From NCBI GenBank assembly GCA_015060885.1, contig SUXO01000001.1, positions 1 to 64,000 on the forward strand: DNA of 64,000 nucleotides. The letters are read 5' to 3'. How positions within the stretch are numbered: position 1 is the first letter of the stretch; every line of letters starts with the position of its first letter. Made by a program: the position numbers and the translations under genes. Shown here piece after piece: positions 4,314 to 56,165 of this stretch. The notes under the pieces were generated by a model. The model was given only the letters and a program-made list of their open reading frames with translations, was not told the DNA's origin and did no database searches. The DNA is from Bacteroidales bacterium (GTDB lineage: Bacteria > Bacteroidota > Bacteroidia > Bacteroidales > Bacteroidaceae).

Positions 4314-4335
4314 GGGCGCACACACCGGTGCGCCC
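4314..4335 (-). repeat. REP-like palindrome, minus-strand reading GGGCGCAC-CGGTGT-GTGCGCCC
   Basis: Perfect inverted repeat; reverse complement has the same GTAGG prefix and CGGTGT loop as the other family members. Confidence 0.85.
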
Positions 4336-4367
4336 CTACGGCAATCCTGATTAAGGGCACTATAACA

Positions 4368-4401: not shown

Positions 4402-5460
4402 TTACGGGCAAACAGGGCGCACCGAGTAGCCGAAGGAGCGTTTGTCGTTGTACCACTCGAAGTAGCCGCTGTAGAAGTACAGGTAGTAAGCGTAGTAGCT
4501 GCGGCTGCTGCACAACGAACTCGACCAATAGTAGCCGCTGGTGCCTCCCGTACCGCCGCGGTAGCCCGCAGCGGGCAGGAAGATGCTGTTGCCATTGGGG
4601 CCGGTTACACGGTAACCCTCTACGCCGTTAAGAGTAGTCCAAGTCCAAGTGCAGTTGTTTATGAGTTCTCGTTGTTCTTCGTCGGTAGGCATTCGCCAAC
4701 TGCCGCCCCATTTAACGCTGGCTACATCGTCACCTGCTTCAAGGGTGGTTTTGTTGTCCACGGTGCCGTAACTGCTGCTTGTGCAGTATTTGGTCATCGA
4801 GTTAAAAGTGCCATTGCAATATTTATAGGTGCTCCATGAGTAGTCGCTCTTCTCCTCTGTTTCGCCCCAAGCGTAGTAACCGCCATACTCTTCGGGCTTT
4901 GTGGCACCCACATTGCACGAGGCCCATTTAAGTCCACTGGGCAAGCCGAGGTCAACAGCGCGTGAGTCGGTGGTAGGGGTGTCATCGTCGCTGTCGGGGT
5001 TCAGTATTATATTCACAACCTCGGTTACGTCGGCCACATCAACAGTGCCGTCACCATCGACATCGCCTTTCTTGCCTGCGGTTTCGGGGATTGTGATGGT
5101 GGCGTTGATTATCTTTGCCTGGTCGCTGCCGCTACTGCCACCATAGTCTTTGGTGTATTGGGCTACAAAGGTATAGACGCCGCTTTCGGTGAATTCGTGG
5201 GTGTAGGTGCCGCTGGCGGTTCCGCTCTTTTTAAGGATTTGGGTGCCGTCGAGGGTAACAATGAGCCAATCGTAATTGCTCTCGCTGCTTACGCTCCAAT
5301 CGAAAGTAAAAGTACAACCGGCGAAAGCACATATACCATAGCTGTTCTGTGAACTGCTGTTGTTGGTGCCGCCGTTGGTGGAGGTCCAGTCCTTGAAGGT
5401 CTGTGCACCGGCTGCAACAGTGAGCAGTAGGGCGGTTAAAAACAGGTAAATCTTTTTCAT
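4402..5460 (-). CDS. secreted protein with dockerin-like EF-hand segment and C-terminal FISUMP/C-type-lectin-like domain; candidate remote DGR target (VR2)
   Basis: Signal peptide MKKIYLFLTALLLTVAAGAQ, GDVDGDGTVDVADVTEVVNIIL, C-terminal LPAAGYRGGTGG...SVRPVCP; highly similar to 54610-55704. Confidence 0.8.
   Translation of the reverse strand: MKKIYLFLTALLLTVAAGAQTFKDWTSTNGGTNNSSSQNSYGICAFAGCTFTFDWSVSSESNYDWLIVTLDGTQILKKSGTASGTYTHEFTESGVYTFVAQYTKDYGGSSGSDQAKIINATITIPETAGKKGDVDGDGTVDVADVTEVVNIILNPDSDDDTPTTDSRAVDLGLPSGLKWASCNVGATKPEEYGGYYAWGETEEKSDYSWSTYKYCNGTFNSMTKYCTSSSYGTVDNKTTLEAGDDVASVKWGGSWRMPTDEEQRELINNCTWTWTTLNGVEGYRVTGPNGNSIFLPAAGYRGGTGGTSGYYWSSSLCSSRSYYAYYLYFYSGYFEWYNDKRSFGYSVRPVCP
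4412..4579 (-). repeat. candidate remote DGR variable repeat VR2 (168 nt)
   Basis: Aligns to the TR at 53112-53291 with about 24 adenine-site substitutions, about 4 non-adenine substitutions and one 12-nt deletion (hand alignment). Confidence 0.75.
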
Positions 5461-11984: not shown

Positions 11985-12145
11985 AATATATAGCGTTTAT
12001 TTATTAACAAAAACAATATGCGCTCGCGCGCAACGCGTAACTCTTACAAAGATAAAACTAAATATAATATAGCCTGCAAAATATTGGAAAAAAATTGCTT
12101 TTCGAGCAGAAATTAACTACTTTCGCAAAGTATTTGAAAAGTATT

Positions 12146-12517
12146 ATGGAAATAACAGGAAAAATTATTGCAGTATTGCCCGAGAGAGGCGGTACATCGA
12201 AAACAGGTAACGAGTGGAAGATGCAGGAGTACGTTATAGAGACACACGAGCAGTACCCCAAGAAGGTATGTTTCAACGTATTCGGCGCCGACAAGATAGC
12301 ACAGTTCAACATTCAGGCAGGTGACGAGCTTACAGTGTCGTTCGACATAAATGCCCGTGAGTATAACGGCCGCTGGTACAACGACATACGCGCGTGGCGT
12401 GTAGAGCGTGGCACTGCACCCGCAGAGGCTCCCGCCAACATTCCCGCGATTGACGCTCCCAAAGCCAAAATGGAGGATTTCAGCAACGACAACAACCCCG
12501 ACGACCTCCCCTTCTGA
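12146..12517 (+). CDS. DUF3127 / SSB-like protein
   Basis: MEITGKIIAVLPERGGTSKTGNEWKMQEYVIETHEQYPKKV...; acidic C-terminal DDLPF tip; start moved from 12095 to 12146. Confidence 0.85.
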   Translation: MEITGKIIAVLPERGGTSKTGNEWKMQEYVIETHEQYPKKVCFNVFGADKIAQFNIQAGDELTVSFDINAREYNGRWYNDIRAWRVERGTAPAEAPANIPAIDAPKAKMEDFSNDNNPDDLPF

Positions 12518-12535
12518 TAAAAGATATCAAGAATT

Positions 12536-12577
12536 AAAGCAGCCGACTTGCACTAAAAAGTACAAGTCGGCTGCTTT
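12536..12577. terminator. terminator AAAGCAGCCGACTTG...CAAGTCGGCTGCTTT
   Basis: 15-bp perfect outer stem just after the DUF3127 gene. Confidence 0.85.
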
Positions 12578-12591
12578 ATTATACATTAACA

Positions 12592-12672
12592 AACTTTAAC
12601 AACGGCGACTATACCAAGAGCAACCGTGGTGACAGCTTCAACGGCCACACGGTGCACCCTGTTTGCCCGTAA
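12592..12672 (+). pseudogene. orphan DGR TR/VR-like (FISUMP C-terminal) fragment
   Basis: AAC TTT AAC AAC GGC GAC TAT ... TTC AAC GGC CAC ACG GTG CAC CCT GTT TGC CCG TAA = NFNNGDYTKSNRGDSFNGHTVHPVCP*; matches the 3' part of the TR (NGHTVRPV) and the VR2 end (PVCP*). Confidence 0.75.
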
Positions 12673-12687
12673 GTACTCAATACACAA

Positions 12688-12731
12688 ATACAAAGAAACA
12701 GCTGCCAGGTTTGGCAGCTGTTTCTTTGTAT
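12688..12731. terminator. bidirectional terminator, 20-bp perfect stem
   Basis: ATACAAAGAAACAGCTGCCA-GGTT-TGGCAGCTGTTTCTTTGTAT. Confidence 0.9.
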
Positions 12732-12745
12732 AACGACATCACTTG

Positions 12746-14671
12746 TTACGAATTCATACTCATAAGGAACTCGCCATTGTCCTTTGTCTTTTCCAGGCGG
12801 TCCTTAACAAATTCCATAGCCTCCATAGGTGTCATATCGGCAAGATACTTGCGAAGAATCCACATACGGTCAAGAGTCTGTTTGTCGAGCAAGAGGTCGT
12901 CGCGACGGGTGCTCGAAGCAATGATGTTCACTGCGGGGAATATTCGCTTGTTGCTCAATGTGCGGTCGAGCTGGAGCTCCATATTACCGGTACCCTTGAA
13001 CTCTTCGAAGATAACCTCGTCCATCTTGGAACCTGTGTCGATGAGGGCTGTTGCTATAATGGTGAGCGAACCGCCATTTTCTATGTTACGGGCTGCACCG
13101 AAGAAACGTTTGGGCTTGTGCAGAGCGTTGGCATCGACACCACCCGACAACACTTTGCCCGATGCGGGAGAAACCGTGTTATAGGCGCGTGCAAGGCGGG
13201 TTATTGAGTCGAGGAAGATTACTACATCGTGACCGCACTCAACCATACGTTTTGCGCGTTCAAGCACAATTCCTGCAATTTTCACGTGACGCTCTGCGGG
13301 CTCGTCAAAGGTAGATGCAATGACCTCGGCATTCACACTGCGGGCCATATCGGTAACCTCTTCGGGACGCTCGTCAATGAGCAGCATAATCATATATGCT
13401 TCGGGGTGGTTGGCCGCAATGGCATTGGCAATGTCTTTGAGCAGCATTGTCTTACCAGTCTTAGGCTGTGCCACAATGAGCGCACGCTGTCCCTTGCCTA
13501 TGGGTGAGAAGAGGTCGACCACACGCGCCGACATATTGTCGTAGTTGCCCGCACAAAGGGTGAACTTCTCTTCGGGGAAGAGGGGCACCAGGTTGTCGAA
13601 CGATACGCGGTCGCGCACAAGTTCGGGGGCAAGGCCGTTTATCTTGTTGACCTTTACAAGCGGGAAATATTTCTCGCCGGCACTTGCGGGGCGTATGATA
13701 CCCTCGACAACGTCACCGGTTTTAAGGCCGTAGAGCTTTATCTGCGACTGCGACACATAGACATCGTCGGGCGAAGAGAGGTAGTTGTAGTCGGAAGAAC
13801 GCAGGAAACCATAGTTGTCGGGCATTGTTTCGAGAACACCCTCAACGCGCAATACGTCGGCAAAGTCATACTGGGGCTGCGGCTGCTGACGCTCCTGCTG
13901 CTCGCCCTGTTCCTGACGGCCTTTGTCGCCGCGCTGCTGACGCTGGCGTTTGTCGCCCTTTTGAGGCTGCTCCTGACGGCTCTTGTCGAATTTCTCAACA
14001 AGTTCTGCGGGAACCTCCTTGTTTTCCACAGGGAGCTCTTCTATGGGTACAAAAGCCTCTTCTACCGCAACGGCAGGCTGCGCAGCATCGGTTGCTGCCT
14101 CGGCGGGCTGCTCATCGGCCTGTTTTTTAGGCTTGCGGCCGCGCTTTTTGGGGGCGGGCTCGGCCTGTGCCTCTTCGACAACGGGTTCCGCAGCCTGTGT
14201 CGTTTCTGCTGCCGCCTCAACGGGCTGCTCTTCGGCCTGTTTTTTGGGCTTGCGGCCACGTTTCTTGGGAGCGGGCTCGGCAGCGGGTTCTTCAACTGCG
14301 GGTGCTGCGACGGGCTCAGCAACAACTGCTGCAACAGGTTCTGTTACAGGCTCCAATAGTTTTTCCTGTTGTTTGTTCTTTTTGGGTTCGTCGGTGTCGA
14401 GCTTGACAGCCTTGTCGCCTGTGGCGGTATAGACCTTGCTGGTTGCATCGGTATGTATTCTGTTACGGCGATGCTCACGACGATGCATTCTTGTCTCCTC
14501 CTTTACCACAGCCGGAGCACCCGACTGGCTGTTCTGCACAGCCTGGCCATCGAGGATACGATAGATTACCGAGTCGCGGTCGAGTGACTTTACACCTTTG
14601 ATACCCAACTCTTGGGCAATGGATTGCAGCTCGGCAATCTCCTTGCTTCTTAATTGTTCTATATGATACAT
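12746..14671 (-). CDS. rho: transcription termination factor Rho with long N-terminal low-complexity insertion
   Basis: [56 protein letters not shown]-terminal [14 protein letters not shown] repeats. Confidence 0.95.
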
Positions 14672-30202: not shown

Positions 30203-30365
30203 AGTGGGTGACCCAAAAGTGAAATGGGTCACCCACGTTTGTAGGGAGGTTGGATAAAAAGAGCTATTTTTAGGCTTGCGAAGCCCGAAAAAACGCAGTT
30301 TACTAAGCGTAAATGAGTATTTTTCGGTCAAGCGTAACAACAAAAGAGCCTTTTTAGTCAGCCTC
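30203..30365 (+). repeat. 163-bp dispersed repeat copy 1
   Basis: Identical by eye to 47983-48145; begins with hairpin GTGGGTGACCCA-N9-TGGGTCACCCAC. Confidence 0.92.
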
Positions 30366-33308: not shown

Positions 33309-35504
33309 TCAAAATAACATCGCCACGCGATAAACTATCCACGCTGCAATATATGCCACCAAAGTAGTGTAAAGAGCCGTAAAGAGAGCATATTTCCATC
33401 GGCCGCTCTCACCCTTTATTGCAGCAATCGTAGCCAAACAAGGGAAATAGAGCAGAGCAAAGACCATATAACTTAAAGCAGCTGCGGCTGTCATTCCCGA
33501 TAGTCCGATAGCTTGCTGCAACATAGTCTCATCCTCGGCACAATCATCGGGTAAATCATACAGCACGCCCAATGTGCTCACCATAAGTTCCTTTGCTCCC
33601 AATCCCGCAAGAATACCTACTCCCATACGCCAATCGTAGCCCAAAGGAGATATTACAGGCTCTATTGCGTGCCCAATCTGCCCAAGATAGGATTGTTCCT
33701 GTTGCTGCGACGAAGTAATTTCCTCGGCCGAACCACTCACGGGGAAATAACCCAAAGCCCATATAACAATGCTGGCAACAAGAATAATTCCACCCATCTT
33801 GCGGATATATTGACGACCCTTTTCCCAAGTGTGACGGGTAACACTGCGCATCACAGGCATACGATAGGGCGGCATTTCCATTACAAAGTGACTCTCCTCT
33901 TTTCTGCGAAAAGCCACATTCAAAAGCATCGCCGACATTATTGCTATTATCACCCCGCCAAAATAAAGCCCCATCATAACCAATGACGCATTCTCGGGGA
34001 AAAAAGCACCGGCAAGAACCGTGTACACCGGCAAACGAGCCGAACAAGACATAAACGGCAAGGTAATCATAGTAATAATCCTGCTCTTGCGGCTCTCGAT
34101 GGTGCGCGTAGCCATTACCGCCGGCACGCTGCATCCGAATCCCATTATAATAGGGATAAAAGATTTTCCGTGCAACCCCACGCGACGAAGCAACGGGTCG
34201 GCCAACATAGCCGCACGAGCCAAATAACCCGTATCCTCCAAAATGGATATAAAGAAATACAGTATCAAAATATTGGGAAGGAAAATAATCACACTGCCTA
34301 TTCCCCCCACAATGCCATCGACAAGAAGGTCCTTGAACCATCCATCAGCAAGATTGGCACCAAGAATTTCCGACACCCACGCAACACCGGCATCCATCCA
34401 CTCCATAGGATAGGCACCAATTTCAAAGGTTGCATAAAATATAAGATACATCAATGCAAAAAAAGCAAAATACCCCAAAGCCGAAGAGGCCAACCAACGG
34501 TCGATTAGTGCCGTTACTCGCGAAGAACGCCCCTCGCGCAATTTATAAACACCATCGAGAATACGATGCACAGCCGTATGCTGGTTCTGCATTGTAACAT
34601 CATCGACAGGCAAAGAGATTACACAATCCTCTTTATGCTCCGCACAAGCAATCGCCCGACGAAGCACCTCATCGACTCCCTTACCCTTGCAAGCAACCGT
34701 GGGTATCAAAGGTATTCCGAGCCTCTCTTGCAACTGCTCTATATTTACTTCGCTGCCGTTACTCTCAAATTCATCATAAATATTAAGCACGCCCACCACG
34801 GGAATACCGAAACGCATCAGCTGCAAAGTAAGCAACAGGTTACGTTCAAGATTATTCACGTCAAGCACATTCACAATAACATCGGCCTCTCCCTTTCCAA
34901 GCTCATTGGCCACAAAAGCCTCCTCGGGGCTGAATGCTCGCAAAGAATATGTACCGGGCATATCAATTATACGCAATTTCTTGCCTTCAAATTGAGTGCG
35001 CCCCACTACGCTCGAAACAGTAACGCCGGCATAATTACCCGTACGCTCGTGCCCGCCCGAAGCATAATTGAAAAACGCAGTCTTGCCACAATTGGGGTTA
35101 CCCACAAGAATTATTGTTATTTCATCCTTCTCGGCCGGAGTTATTTTACCGCCGCCACCGCAACCGGGGCACCCCGCACAGGCACTTTTATCACAAGTAG
35201 CCGCCCGTTGAGGAACCACATTCACATTCTCCTCTATGACAGGAACAGATGTGTTCACAGCCAATTTAAGAGCCTCTGCCTCGGAAGACTCTATGCTTAT
35301 AAATTCCGCCTCGGAGCTACGCAGCGCGACCGATTGCCCCAACATTGAAAAAACAATGGTCGAGGAGCAAGGAGAGGCATAGCGCATCGTAATCTCCTGC
35401 CCGGGGATAAAGCCCATCTCCTCCAAACGGAGACGGAAAGCCGCAGACCCGCCTACGACCGAAATAAAACCCTTTTCACCCTCTTTTAAATCTACTAGTT
35501 TCAT
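33309..35504 (-). CDS. feoB: ferrous iron transporter, FeoA-FeoB fusion
   Basis: N-terminal FeoA-like MKLVDLKEGEKGFISVVGG...LRLEEMGFIPGQEI, then LVGNPNCGKTAFFNYASG and FeoB membrane domain. Confidence 0.93.
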   Translation of the reverse strand: MKLVDLKEGEKGFISVVGGSAAFRLRLEEMGFIPGQEITMRYASPCSSTIVFSMLGQSVALRSSEAEFISIESSEAEALKLAVNTSVPVIEENVNVVPQRAATCDKSACAGCPGCGGGGKITPAEKDEITIILVGNPNCGKTAFFNYASGGHERTGNYAGVTVSSVVGRTQFEGKKLRIIDMPGTYSLRAFSPEEAFVANELGKGEADVIVNVLDVNNLERNLLLTLQLMRFGIPVVGVLNIYDEFESNGSEVNIEQLQERLGIPLIPTVACKGKGVDEVLRRAIACAEHKEDCVISLPVDDVTMQNQHTAVHRILDGVYKLREGRSSRVTALIDRWLASSALGYFAFFALMYLIFYATFEIGAYPMEWMDAGVAWVSEILGANLADGWFKDLLVDGIVGGIGSVIIFLPNILILYFFISILEDTGYLARAAMLADPLLRRVGLHGKSFIPIIMGFGCSVPAVMATRTIESRKSRIITMITLPFMSCSARLPVYTVLAGAFFPENASLVMMGLYFGGVIIAIMSAMLLNVAFRRKEESHFVMEMPPYRMPVMRSVTRHTWEKGRQYIRKMGGIILVASIVIWALGYFPVSGSAEEITSSQQQEQSYLGQIGHAIEPVISPLGYDWRMGVGILAGLGAKELMVSTLGVLYDLPDDCAEDETMLQQAIGLSGMTAAAALSYMVFALLYFPCLATIAAIKGESGRWKYALFTALYTTLVAYIAAWIVYRVAMLF

Positions 35505-35714
35505 TTTTATAATATTTCTAATTATTTTTTTTTGACAATGCCATTATTGACGATTGCAAAATTCCTATAAAAACAGAAGCCCCACAATCACATTTTTTTG
35601 CTATTCTGCCCATTTTTCATAATCATTTTTAACCAAAAATAGTTAATAGCACAAATTACCGATGGAACATATTGCGAAAAAACAGTATATTCGTAACCTG
35701 TAAACAGACACTCT

Positions 35715-42454: not shown

Positions 42455-42588
42455 CCAATAAAAACACCCTGCCGCGCCCTATTGTTCTCATTCCGTTGCA
42501 AATATCAAGTCCAATTATGAAATAAAGTTGAAATAGAGAGAAAGGCCGGGAGTATATATAAATAAAATAAAGAGGGTGACCCAAAAGT

Positions 42589-43030
42589 AAAAGTTATCGT
42601 ACAGAAAGTTGAAACTTGTGCTTCTATATCATACAGGACAAGTGCTTTTATCCCGCCTTTCTTCTTGCGGAATTTAGCCCAAGGAAATGTAGCCAAACAT
42701 AAAGGAATCGTAGTGGAACCGAAAGCGTACTTTCGTCCTGGGATGTCCAAAGTATTAGTCGACCGTTTTTCACTTGCTTCTTTCATCATATAAAAAGCGA
42801 AGTCTTCGAAAATTCTATAATCCTGTTTTGATTGACTGATGCAAGTGTTGTTTTGGCTATTCCCAAATGATAGCGTTTCCCTTAATGGGCATCCAAAGCA
42901 ACTATCAAGTCACGCAGGCTTTCACGGTTACTGAGTTGTCCAAACATCATAGCAAGCAGTTGGTTCCAACATGTAAAATGCTTAGGTTGCCGTCGTATTT
43001 GCGAACGTAGTTGTTAAACTGAATTCTGTT
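42589..43030 (-). pseudogene. IS4-family transposase remnant
   Basis: Minus-strand pieces HFTCWNQLLAMMFGQLSNRESLRDLIVALDAH(stop) and STNTLDIPGRKYAFGSTTIPLCLATFPWAKFRKKKGGIKALVLYDIEAQVSTF, interrupted and truncated; boundaries approximate. Confidence 0.75.
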
Positions 43031-47982: not shown

Positions 47983-48145
47983 AGTGGGTGACCCAAAAGT
48001 GAAATGGGTCACCCACGTTTGTAGGGAGGTTGGATAAAAAGAGCTATTTTTAGGCTTGCGAAGCCCGAAAAAACGCAGTTTACTAAGCGTAAATGAGTAT
48101 TTTTCGGTCAAGCGTAACAACAAAAGAGCCTTTTTAGTCAGCCTC
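47983..48145 (+). repeat. 163-bp dispersed repeat copy 2
   Basis: Identical by eye to 30203-30365. Confidence 0.92.
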
Positions 48146-51892: not shown

Positions 51893-53092
51893 TCAAGTTG
51901 ATGAACCCCTGCTATAAACGAATTTTGAAAAACCATCGTTGAAACGGCCAAATTTAAGCAAGAAAGGAAGTGCTCCAAACATACATTTTCTTAACCCGAA
52001 ACTCGCATAATGCGACAACACCCCCAAAAAAGAATTAACCGAAGCACGTAAATATTCAGCACCATCATCGCCCGACAAAAGAGATACTTTCCTTTTCATT
52101 CTGCTCAATGACCTGTTTGCTATATAACTCCTGTAAGGTTTTGCATAACCGCCAAGAAATTCCACACCGTAACGCGCCTCGCGAATAAACAATTTATGCG
52201 GATGAACCTTCAAGCACAAAGCGTCGCGCAAAAAATCACTGACAACAGGCACTATGTCGCGTAATTCACCCTTATAAGGAGAAACAAAGAATGCATCATC
52301 AACATAACGCCCGTAACGTACGCCTCGTATATTACGTTTCACAAATTGGTCGATAACATTCATATAGACATTGCTGAAAAGTTGCGATGTTAAGTTACCG
52401 ATGGGCAACCCCTGCCCACAACCACTGTGAAAAAGACTCTTGTTACGCGGTAATCCACACCAATCGGCAGCAGAGCCCTTGATTTTACAACCTTCCAATG
52501 GGTCGTTCATTATTATCACTTGCGACAAATAGAGCAACAAAGAATAATCCAACTTATCACACCAACGTTTGCCTGCACAATCGGACGGCCTATCGGCCAT
52601 TCTAAGCAAAGCATCCCGGCAAATGTCAAACAGCCGCCTGCGCGATATATGCATAAAATATCCCATAATATCCATTTTAAGCACAAAGCACGGGCGGGTA
52701 TAATTCCTCGACACACTGCGTATGTGATGTTGCAGACGTTTAAAACCATAGTGTGTACCCTTTCCCTTTCGACAGCTATAACTATCGGCAATAAAAGTAC
52801 GCTCGAACAGCGCACACGTATAGTTATAATAAAGATGATGCACAACCCTGTCGCGAAATTCAGCTGCAAAAATCTCACGTTGTTTGGGGTCGTTTATTAT
52901 GAAACAAGTGGATGGAGCCGGTATATACCTCCGTTCCACAAGTTCGTCACGCAAAGCCACTAATTCTGTTTCAAAATCAAGTTCAAAAGACAATTGATAA
53001 AAACGTTTCCTTTTATGCCTGCGGGCATCCCTGTACGCTTTATACAAATCGACAAGAAGCTGTTGCGGAGTAATACAAAAAGAAGAAGGCAC
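51893..53092 (-). CDS. DGR reverse transcriptase
   Basis: FVLKMDIMGYFMHI, QGLPIGNLTSQLFSNVYMNVIDQFV (DGR-type motif 4 context), YGRYVDDAFFV catalytic box. ORF is open back to 53377 through the TR; a GTG at 53092 is a plausible start. Confidence 0.92.
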   Translation of the reverse strand: MPSSFCITPQQLLVDLYKAYRDARRHKRKRFYQLSFELDFETELVALRDELVERRYIPAPSTCFIINDPKQREIFAAEFRDRVVHHLYYNYTCALFERTFIADSYSCRKGKGTHYGFKRLQHHIRSVSRNYTRPCFVLKMDIMGYFMHISRRRLFDICRDALLRMADRPSDCAGKRWCDKLDYSLLLYLSQVIIMNDPLEGCKIKGSAADWCGLPRNKSLFHSGCGQGLPIGNLTSQLFSNVYMNVIDQFVKRNIRGVRYGRYVDDAFFVSPYKGELRDIVPVVSDFLRDALCLKVHPHKLFIREARYGVEFLGGYAKPYRSYIANRSLSRMKRKVSLLSGDDGAEYLRASVNSFLGVLSHYASFGLRKCMFGALPFLLKFGRFNDGFSKFVYSRGSST

Positions 53093-53104
53093 AGGAACCG
53101 CAAG

Positions 53105-53291
53105 TTCTGAGACAGGGCGCACCGTGTGGCCGTTGTAGCGGTTGTTGTTGTTCCAGTCGTAGTTGCCGCTGTTGAAGTTCAGGTTGTAAGCGTTGTTGCT
53201 GTTGTTGCTGTTCAACGAACTCGACCAATAGTTGCCGTTGGAGCCCTGGTTGTTGGCTTCCGTACCGTTGCGGTAGCCCGCAGCGGGCAGG
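53105..53291 (-). repeat. DGR template repeat (TR), 187 nt
   Basis: AAC-rich coding-strand sequence (SLNSNNSNNAYNLNFNSGNYDWNNNNRYNGHTVRPVSE) between avd and RT; gap-free with VR1, about 27 differences all at TR adenines. Confidence 0.95.
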
Positions 53292-53460
53292 CAAGCGGGA
53301 CAGCCATCTGTAATGAATGCCGATGCGGAGGCTTTATGCAACGTATCGGCAGGCTTTCTTAAATAATTTCCTGCCACCGCGTTTTTTCACTGTTTATTAA
53401 CGTATTCTCTTACATAGCAGGCAGGCTGTCTGAATTTGCTGTGGCACACTGCCGACGACC

Positions 53461-53853
53461 TTAATCGTGCGACACTCCGGCGACAAGCCCCTGCCCTTCT
53501 CTTTTGCTCCCCTTGTATGTGGCGCGTTCCCAAGCAGCCAACTGTTTCGACACCGAAACGGTAATCTCCATGAACATTGCAAATTGTTTGTCACTCAACT
53601 GCCGTGTATCATTGAACACCCTTAACAAAATCTGCACCTCCACAAGTTTCTCTCGCGCCTGTGATATATATTCAGCCTTGCTAAATGATTTATTAGCCTT
53701 GAATATCAGAACCAGCATATCCATCGAAGCACGTTTCACCTGCTCGCCCAGCGTGTAACGATAGTCGCGCCCCATCCTCGCCGTGCTTGTTACTAATTGC
53801 AGAAACAGACGATAGCACTCTTCATATACTTTCAGTTCGGTATATACAGCCAT
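53461..53853 (-). CDS. avd: DGR accessory variability determinant Avd (four-helix bundle, S23-like)
   Basis: YTELKVYEECYRLFLQLVTSTARMGRDYRYTLGEQVKRASMDMLVLIFKANKSFSK...AREKLVEVQILLRVFNDTRQLSDKQF; located between accessory gene and TR. Confidence 0.88.
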   Translation of the reverse strand: MAVYTELKVYEECYRLFLQLVTSTARMGRDYRYTLGEQVKRASMDMLVLIFKANKSFSKAEYISQAREKLVEVQILLRVFNDTRQLSDKQFAMFMEITVSVSKQLAAWERATYKGSKREGQGLVAGVSHD

Positions 53854-54588: not shown

Positions 54589-54613
54589 ATAACAAAAACG
54601 AGCTTTTTGTTAT
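54589..54613. other. hairpin ATAACAAAAA-CGAGC-TTTTTGTTAT immediately 3' of VR1
   Basis: Perfect 10-bp inverted repeat overlapping the stop codon of the target gene. Confidence 0.85.
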
Positions 54614-55704
54614 TCTGAGACAGGGCGCACCGTGTGGCCGTAGTAGCGGCCGTAGTAGTACCAGTCGTAGCCGCCGCTGTAGAAGTACAGGCTGCAAGCG
54701 CTGTAGCTGTAGTAGCTGAACAACGAACTCGACCAACAGAAGCCGTAGGAGCCCTGGCCGTAGGCTCCCGTACCGCTGCGGTAGCCCGCAGCGGGCAGGA
54801 AGATGCTGTTGCCGTTGGGCCCGGTTACGCGGTAACCGTTAACACCGTTAAGAGTAGTCCAAGTCCAAGTGCACTTGTTTATGAGTTCTTGTTGTTCTTC
54901 GGTGGTGGGCATTCGCCAATTGCCGCCCCATTTAACGCTGGCTACATCGTCACTTGCTTCAAGGGTGGTTTTGTTGTCCACGGTGCCGTAACTGCTGCTT
55001 GTGCAGTATTTGGTCATTGTGTCATAAGTGCCGTTGCAATATTTATAGGTATCCCAGTCATAGTCGCTCTTCTCCTCTGTTTCGCCCCAAGCGTAATAGC
55101 CGCCGTACTCTTCGGGAGCGGTGGCACCCACGTTGCACGAGGCCCATTTAACCGAGAGGCCCAGGTCGATGGCGGTACCGACAGTTACAGAAGGGGTGCC
55201 GGGGGTAACAGTTGTGTTATCATCGTCATCGCTATCGGGGTTCAGTATTATATTCACAACCTCGGTAACATCGGCAACATCAATGCTGCCGTCGCCATCG
55301 ACGTCGCCTTTCTTGCCTGTGTTTGTTTCGGGGATTGTGATGGTGGCGTTGGTGATTTTTGCTTGGTCGCTGCCGCTGCTGCCACTGCCGTCTTTGGTGT
55401 ATTGGGCTACAAAGGTATAGACGCCGCTTTCGCTGAATTCGTGGGTGTAGGTGCCGTTGGCAGTTCCGCTCTTTTTAAGGATTTGGGTACCGTCGAGGGT
55501 AATAATGAGCCAGTCGTAATTGCTCTCGCTGCTTACGCTCCAATCGAAGGTGAAGGCGCAACCGGCTACTACTCCAACCGTGTAGCTGTTTTGCGATGTG
55601 CTGTTGTTGGTGCCGCCGTTGGTGGAGGTCCAATCCTTGAAGGTCTGCGCGCCGGCTGCAACAGTGAGCAGCAAGGCGGTTAAAAACAGGTAAATCTTTT
55701 TCAT
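54610..55704 (-). CDS. DGR target: secreted protein with dockerin-like EF-hand and C-terminal FISUMP/CLec-like variable domain
   Basis: Signal peptide MKKIYLFLTALLLTVAAGAQ; KKGDVDGDGSIDVADVTEVVNIIL; VR1 encodes GYRSGTGAYGQGSYGFCWSSSLFSYYSYSACSLYFYSGGYDWYYYGRYYGHTVRPVSE. Confidence 0.9.
   Translation of the reverse strand: MKKIYLFLTALLLTVAAGAQTFKDWTSTNGGTNNSTSQNSYTVGVVAGCAFTFDWSVSSESNYDWLIITLDGTQILKKSGTANGTYTHEFSESGVYTFVAQYTKDGSGSSGSDQAKITNATITIPETNTGKKGDVDGDGSIDVADVTEVVNIILNPDSDDDDNTTVTPGTPSVTVGTAIDLGLSVKWASCNVGATAPEEYGGYYAWGETEEKSDYDWDTYKYCNGTYDTMTKYCTSSSYGTVDNKTTLEASDDVASVKWGGNWRMPTTEEQQELINKCTWTWTTLNGVNGYRVTGPNGNSIFLPAAGYRSGTGAYGQGSYGFCWSSSLFSYYSYSACSLYFYSGGYDWYYYGRYYGHTVRPVSE
54613..54799 (-). 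repeat. DGR variable repeat VR1, 187 nt
   Basis: Gap-free alignment with the TR; substitutions only at TR adenines (hand count about 27). Confidence 0.95.
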
Positions 55705-55827: not shown

Positions 55828-55877
<50 letters not shown>

Positions 55878-56112: not shown

Positions 56113-56134
56113 GGGCGCACACACCGGTGCGCCC
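56113..56134 (-). repeat. REP-like palindrome, minus-strand reading GGGCGCAC-CGGTGT-GTGCGCCC
   Basis: Identical to 4314-4335. Confidence 0.85.
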
Positions 56135-56165
56135 CTACGGCAAATAACAACCATCCACAATGCAG

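Follow-up and report, generated by a model that had tools for sequence, protein, structure and literature searches.

In the window, which is the whole stretch of 64,000 nucleotides analysed here, the tail located between the DUF3127 (ssb-like) gene and rho is a genuine but unremarkable gene remnant rather than a second template. From 12577 or 12632 to 12672, it is likely the 3' end surviving from an Lcl_C/FISUMP-family (C-lectin-like) gene that lost its body, probably one of the subgroup diversified by the DGR. The evidence consists of the homology of the 3' end, the absence of a start and a body, a substitution pattern that is not that of a TR, and the variation of the junction throughout the genus. 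The features concerned are listed in Table 1.

Table 1. The tail, its flanks and the DGR components in the window
Feature	Positions	Strand	Evidence
Tail (ending FNGHTVHPVCP-stop)	12592-12672	+	
3' end of Lcl_C/FISUMP-family gene, securely homologous (ending SFNGHTVHPVCP-stop)	12632-12672	+	BLASTN, block scores
Upstream portion, in frame, probably belonging to the tail (YYTLTNFNNGDYTKSNRGD)	12577-12631	+	DNA-level resemblance (weaker)
Hairpin/terminator 3' of DUF3127 gene, probably bidirectional	12535-12578		
Hairpin/terminator before rho 3' end, probably bidirectional	12688-12731		
DUF3127 (ssb-like) gene, probable start 12146	12095-12517	+	PF11325, 1.2e-37
rho	12746-14671	-	
DGR template repeat (TR)	53105-53291	-	
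DGR reverse transcriptase (RT) ORF, putative GTG start, TR in frame in 5' part	51893-53377	-	RVT_1, 2.7e-11
Avd-like accessory protein	53461-53853	-	Avd model, 3e-11, below the model's curated cut-off
DGR target gene 1 (VR1 at 54613-54799)	54610-55704	-	
DGR target gene 2 (VR2, remote)	4402-5460	-	

Position and homology of the tail

The 228-nt gap between the DUF3127 gene and rho houses the tail, which is bracketed by two hairpins with stems of 20 bp. The initial annotation described it as lacking a gene body and lying between two strong terminators, in agreement with our analysis: no gene body is attached to it, and no ORF reaching 20 aa begins in its frame (12592-12672, + strand). No match was obtained with Rfam or with Pfam, the 27 aa of the stretch being too short for the latter. 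Its assignment to the opposite strand holds relative to TR, VR1, VR2 and rho but not relative to the ssb-like gene, which has the same orientation as the tail.

The sequences shared with the TR 3' end and the VR2 gene end, also pointed out initially, were both confirmed as exact 15-nt matches, AACGGCCACACGGTG at 12640-12654 (+) and 53120-53134 (-), and CCTGTTTGCCCGTAA at 12658-12672 (+) and 4402-4416 (-). In whole-genome BLASTN, the region 12585-12690 matched TR and the VR2 gene end at 28 of 31 positions each (E = 1.7e-5 in both cases). Against the family tails, the 41-nt block 12632-12672 gave a score of 52, whereas the maximum among 1831 random 41-mers of the window was 40, with none reaching 52. 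Because the block score exceeds this background and the BLASTN matches point the same way, the similarity is not due to chance. Secure homology is limited to about 12632-12672.

For the upstream half (12577-12631), DNA comparison with codon shuffles indicated resemblance to the VR of a target-like gene in the relative G015 (p<0.001) and to TR (p=0.017), both being closer in DNA than the family members C33a and C33b. A profile of our own, built from the family tails, gave the stretch 18 bits against 5.7 or less for full shuffles, the score being contributed by the last ten or so residues; on the upstream residues, 374 of 2000 shuffles scored equally high. Since the protein profile gives no support there and the resemblance is one of DNA, this half belongs only probably to the same tail.

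The tail closes with an ending of the type G-(H/L)-T-V-R-P-V-C-P-stop (NGHTVHPVCP-stop), and similar endings were detected in C33a (GHTVRPVCP-stop) and six others. VRPVCP-stop is found in T2, C37, C47, C44 and C58, and IRPVCP-stop in C33b. VCP-stop is the usual ending of the Lcl_C/FISUMP family in this genome (T2, C37, C47, C33a, C33b, C44 and C58), the exceptions being TR and VR1 (VSE). The idea that the tail links a distinct 3' end of VR2 to a lost element is therefore untenable. A search of the genome for the ending pattern yielded 7 places, 6 with a gene body, the tail being the only one without.

The DGR of the window and the substitution pattern of the tail

The system at 51.9-55.7 kb is a real cellular DGR, with RT, Avd, TR and a target carrying a VR that differs at adenines. 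Within the RT ORF, both RVT_1 and Lcl_C (the Pfam name of the target domain) were found by Pfam because TR lies in frame inside this ORF. Between VR1 and TR, 27 of 57 adenines are changed, as against none of the 130 remaining positions (Fisher p=5e-17). The corresponding differences (adenines, others) are 23/49 and 4/119 for VR2, 25/54 and 6/126 for C37, and 26/54 and 8/126 for C47, indicating the presence of at least four targets. Two of these are remote targets on other contigs, at G000:C37 about 34967-35536, C-terminal within a long open frame of 833 aa, and at G000:C47 1237-1800. The domain occurs nine more times in the genome in copies that are not targets, and a single long protein on C20 accounts for four of these. 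The non-adenine mismatches to TR amount to 45/126 for C33a and 27/91 for C33b.

Several repeats were noted in parallel. Upstream of the VR1 gene lies a (TG)21.5 run (55833-55875) that might change in length and influence expression. The palindromic repeat GTAGGGGCGCACCGGTGTGTGCGCCC occurs at 4314-4339, 56113-56138 and a further 62 genomic sites (64 copies with 3 or fewer mismatches), near some DGR target genes and, on contig C61, in a cluster with about 118-nt spacing in places. A MITE-like 163-nt pair (30203-30365 and 47983-48145), 100% identical and with inverted-repeat-like ends, has a partial third copy at 42556-42592.

The tail differs from TR at 7 of 22 adenines and at 9 of 46 non-adenine positions (20%), and contains a 3-nt insertion relative to TR; it is therefore not a copy of TR, nor a recent product of homing. 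Unlike those of VR1, its mismatches are not concentrated at adenines (p=0.36). The differences are not confined to the adenines of the current TR, as they should be in a VR, and the tail does not match the VRs except at adenines of its own, as a template should; it aligned with VR1 at only 64% and with VR2 at 77%, with gaps. With respect to context, the nearest RT is about 39 kb away (51893-53377) and the neighbours are DUF3127 and rho: the tail is located neither next to a DGR RT/Avd cassette nor in the 3' end of an ORF, the respective sites of a TR and a VR. Eight of the nine non-adenine changes are AT-ward, and this drift was dropped as a sign of decay because intact targets drift in the same way. 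The unmutated AAC codons, previously taken as a relic sign, are likewise undiagnostic, since about half of the TR adenines stay unmutated in real VRs.

The DUF3127-rho junction in related genomes

The survey of the junction covered 28 genus members in which the retrieved stretch contains DUF3127 as well as rho; in L041, L042, L045, L049 and L051 the contig ended before rho or rho was not reached. In 13 of the 28 bounded relatives the spacing was only 54-95 nt, and others contained up to 8.4 kb of other genes, with unrelated genes at several junctions. The site thus carries variable cargo in the genus, from nothing up to several long ORFs, and in L035 a MITE-like inverted-repeat element. The two nearest relatives, G010 and G014, have a spacing of 70 and 72 nt and one hairpin each, and two hairpins with little between them were seen at junctions of relatives as well.

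Genes of the FISUMP family were found at two junctions: an apparently intact gene in G031 (224 aa, lipoprotein-like start by eye, - strand), which is a paralog of the non-target kind, and a VR-like gene with a frame break in G006 (- strand). In a survey of 80 DUF3127 loci on genome contigs, FISUMP genes were located at the same two junctions only. Both genes lie on the strand opposite to the tail and are therefore not simple orthologues of the lost gene. In a tree of dnaN and DUF3127, G031 and G006 fall outside the nearest relatives of the window, the junctions of which carry no FISUMP gene, and shared ancestry of the insertions is thus unsupported. Repeated loss of a FISUMP gene at the junction across the genus is possible.

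The expected intact target or TR at the junction in relatives did not materialize: searches of the genus (43 other genomes, by DNA and with a 31-aa protein query) and of 300 genomes sampled from the family (by protein) revealed no orthologue with the orientation of the tail. In the protein searches of both sets, the stretch alone passed, and by DNA the 43 genomes yielded nothing beyond family tails at other sites (G015) or a weak match of unrelated appearance (G002). Neither RT nor Avd was detected beside the junction, here or in the relatives searched.

Origin of the tail and comparison with known systems

The tail was initially taken as either a relic TR or a decapitated target. The latter part stood, the 3' end being that of the same family and start and body being absent; the former fell with the 20% non-adenine mismatches and the family stop. 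A relic TR of the current or an older DGR might be suggested by some AAC codons, by the exact 15-nt match to the 3' end of TR and by upstream DNA that is most similar to the VR of a relative and to TR. Such codons are, however, retained in VRs too, the tail closes with the family VCP and a stop codon absent from TR, and no RT or Avd adjoins it here or at the relatives' junctions; on substitution pattern, stop codon and context, this origin is ruled out as far as a very small residual chance. The insertion and the mismatch rate at non-adenine positions equally exclude a homing product of the current TR. They are also unlike mutagenic homing in general, which argues against arrival of the tail alone, at a site that never held a gene, as a short cDNA integration or gene conversion product of the DGR. 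The composite look of TR-like GGCCACACGGTG and VR2-like CCTGTTTGCCCGTAA would fit such an arrival, but the composite is near the family consensus and its two halves recur almost unchanged in C33a, making this origin most improbable. Two strong flanking hairpins could also enclose a functional short element (a regulatory 3' UTR, small RNA or peptide), a highly unlikely reading given the lack of an in-frame ORF of 20 aa or more, of an Rfam match and of a counterpart in the 43 other genus genomes, and given similar paired hairpins with little between them in relatives.

A possible, if less probable, source is a FISUMP paralog that the DGR never targeted. Nine such copies exist in the genome, C33a among the family with its GHTVRPVCP-stop ending, the gene at the G031 junction is of this kind, and the mismatches to TR lack adenine bias. 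In contrast, the upstream DNA resembles the G015 target and TR, not C33a or C33b, and the non-adenine mismatch rate of the tail is lower than that of either. The lost gene was thus likely a DGR target.

For the remnant of a decapitated gene, we propose that the site between the DUF3127 gene and rho was formerly occupied by a full-length Lcl_C/FISUMP gene on the + strand. The promoter, start and body of this gene would have been deleted as far as the DUF3127 terminator, and for this reason the remnant would now be neither expressed nor diversified. Homology well above background, the same ending on seven paralogs and the presence of family genes at the G031 and G006 junctions agree with this proposal; the opposite orientation of those two genes and the lack of protein-profile support for anything before the final ten or so residues count against it. 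It is very unlikely that the junction is a recurrent site of landing and loss for FISUMP genes of DGR-target type (in G031, G006 and this genome independently), with targets moving between preferred intergenic sites and leaving tails.

Target-family genes of a multi-target DGR thus seem to turn over, being gained and broken, and the junction comparison gives a small picture of such genes coming and going at one site. A bare tail can pass wrongly for a template or a target, and more is to be gained from the working DGR, with its four or more remote targets, than from the remnant.

C-lectin folds are known in DGR targets (PMC8144416). A survey of the human microbiome found DUF1566, which resembles Fib_succ_major in HHsearch, more often than any other target domain (PMC4159848). 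Compared with gut-bacterial targets carrying a C-terminal DUF1566/Lcl_C (FISUMP-like, C-type lectin) domain (PMC4159848), the tail represents the C-terminal end of such a domain. The paralogs VR1, VR2, C37 and C47 show the substitution pattern of true targets; the tail differs in having no gene body, start or adenine-biased substitution, and is no working target. DGRs with multiple VRs, arising through duplication of target paralogs and accompanied by VR-less relatives, are known (PMC3521204), and the present genome agrees with this in having four or more targets beside nine domain copies that are not targets, except that the copy at 12592-12672 is cut down to its tail. With ordinary truncated intergenic pseudogenes the tail shares the survival of the 3' end only, intact neighbours and a junction of variable cargo, and it differs from them in nothing but family membership.
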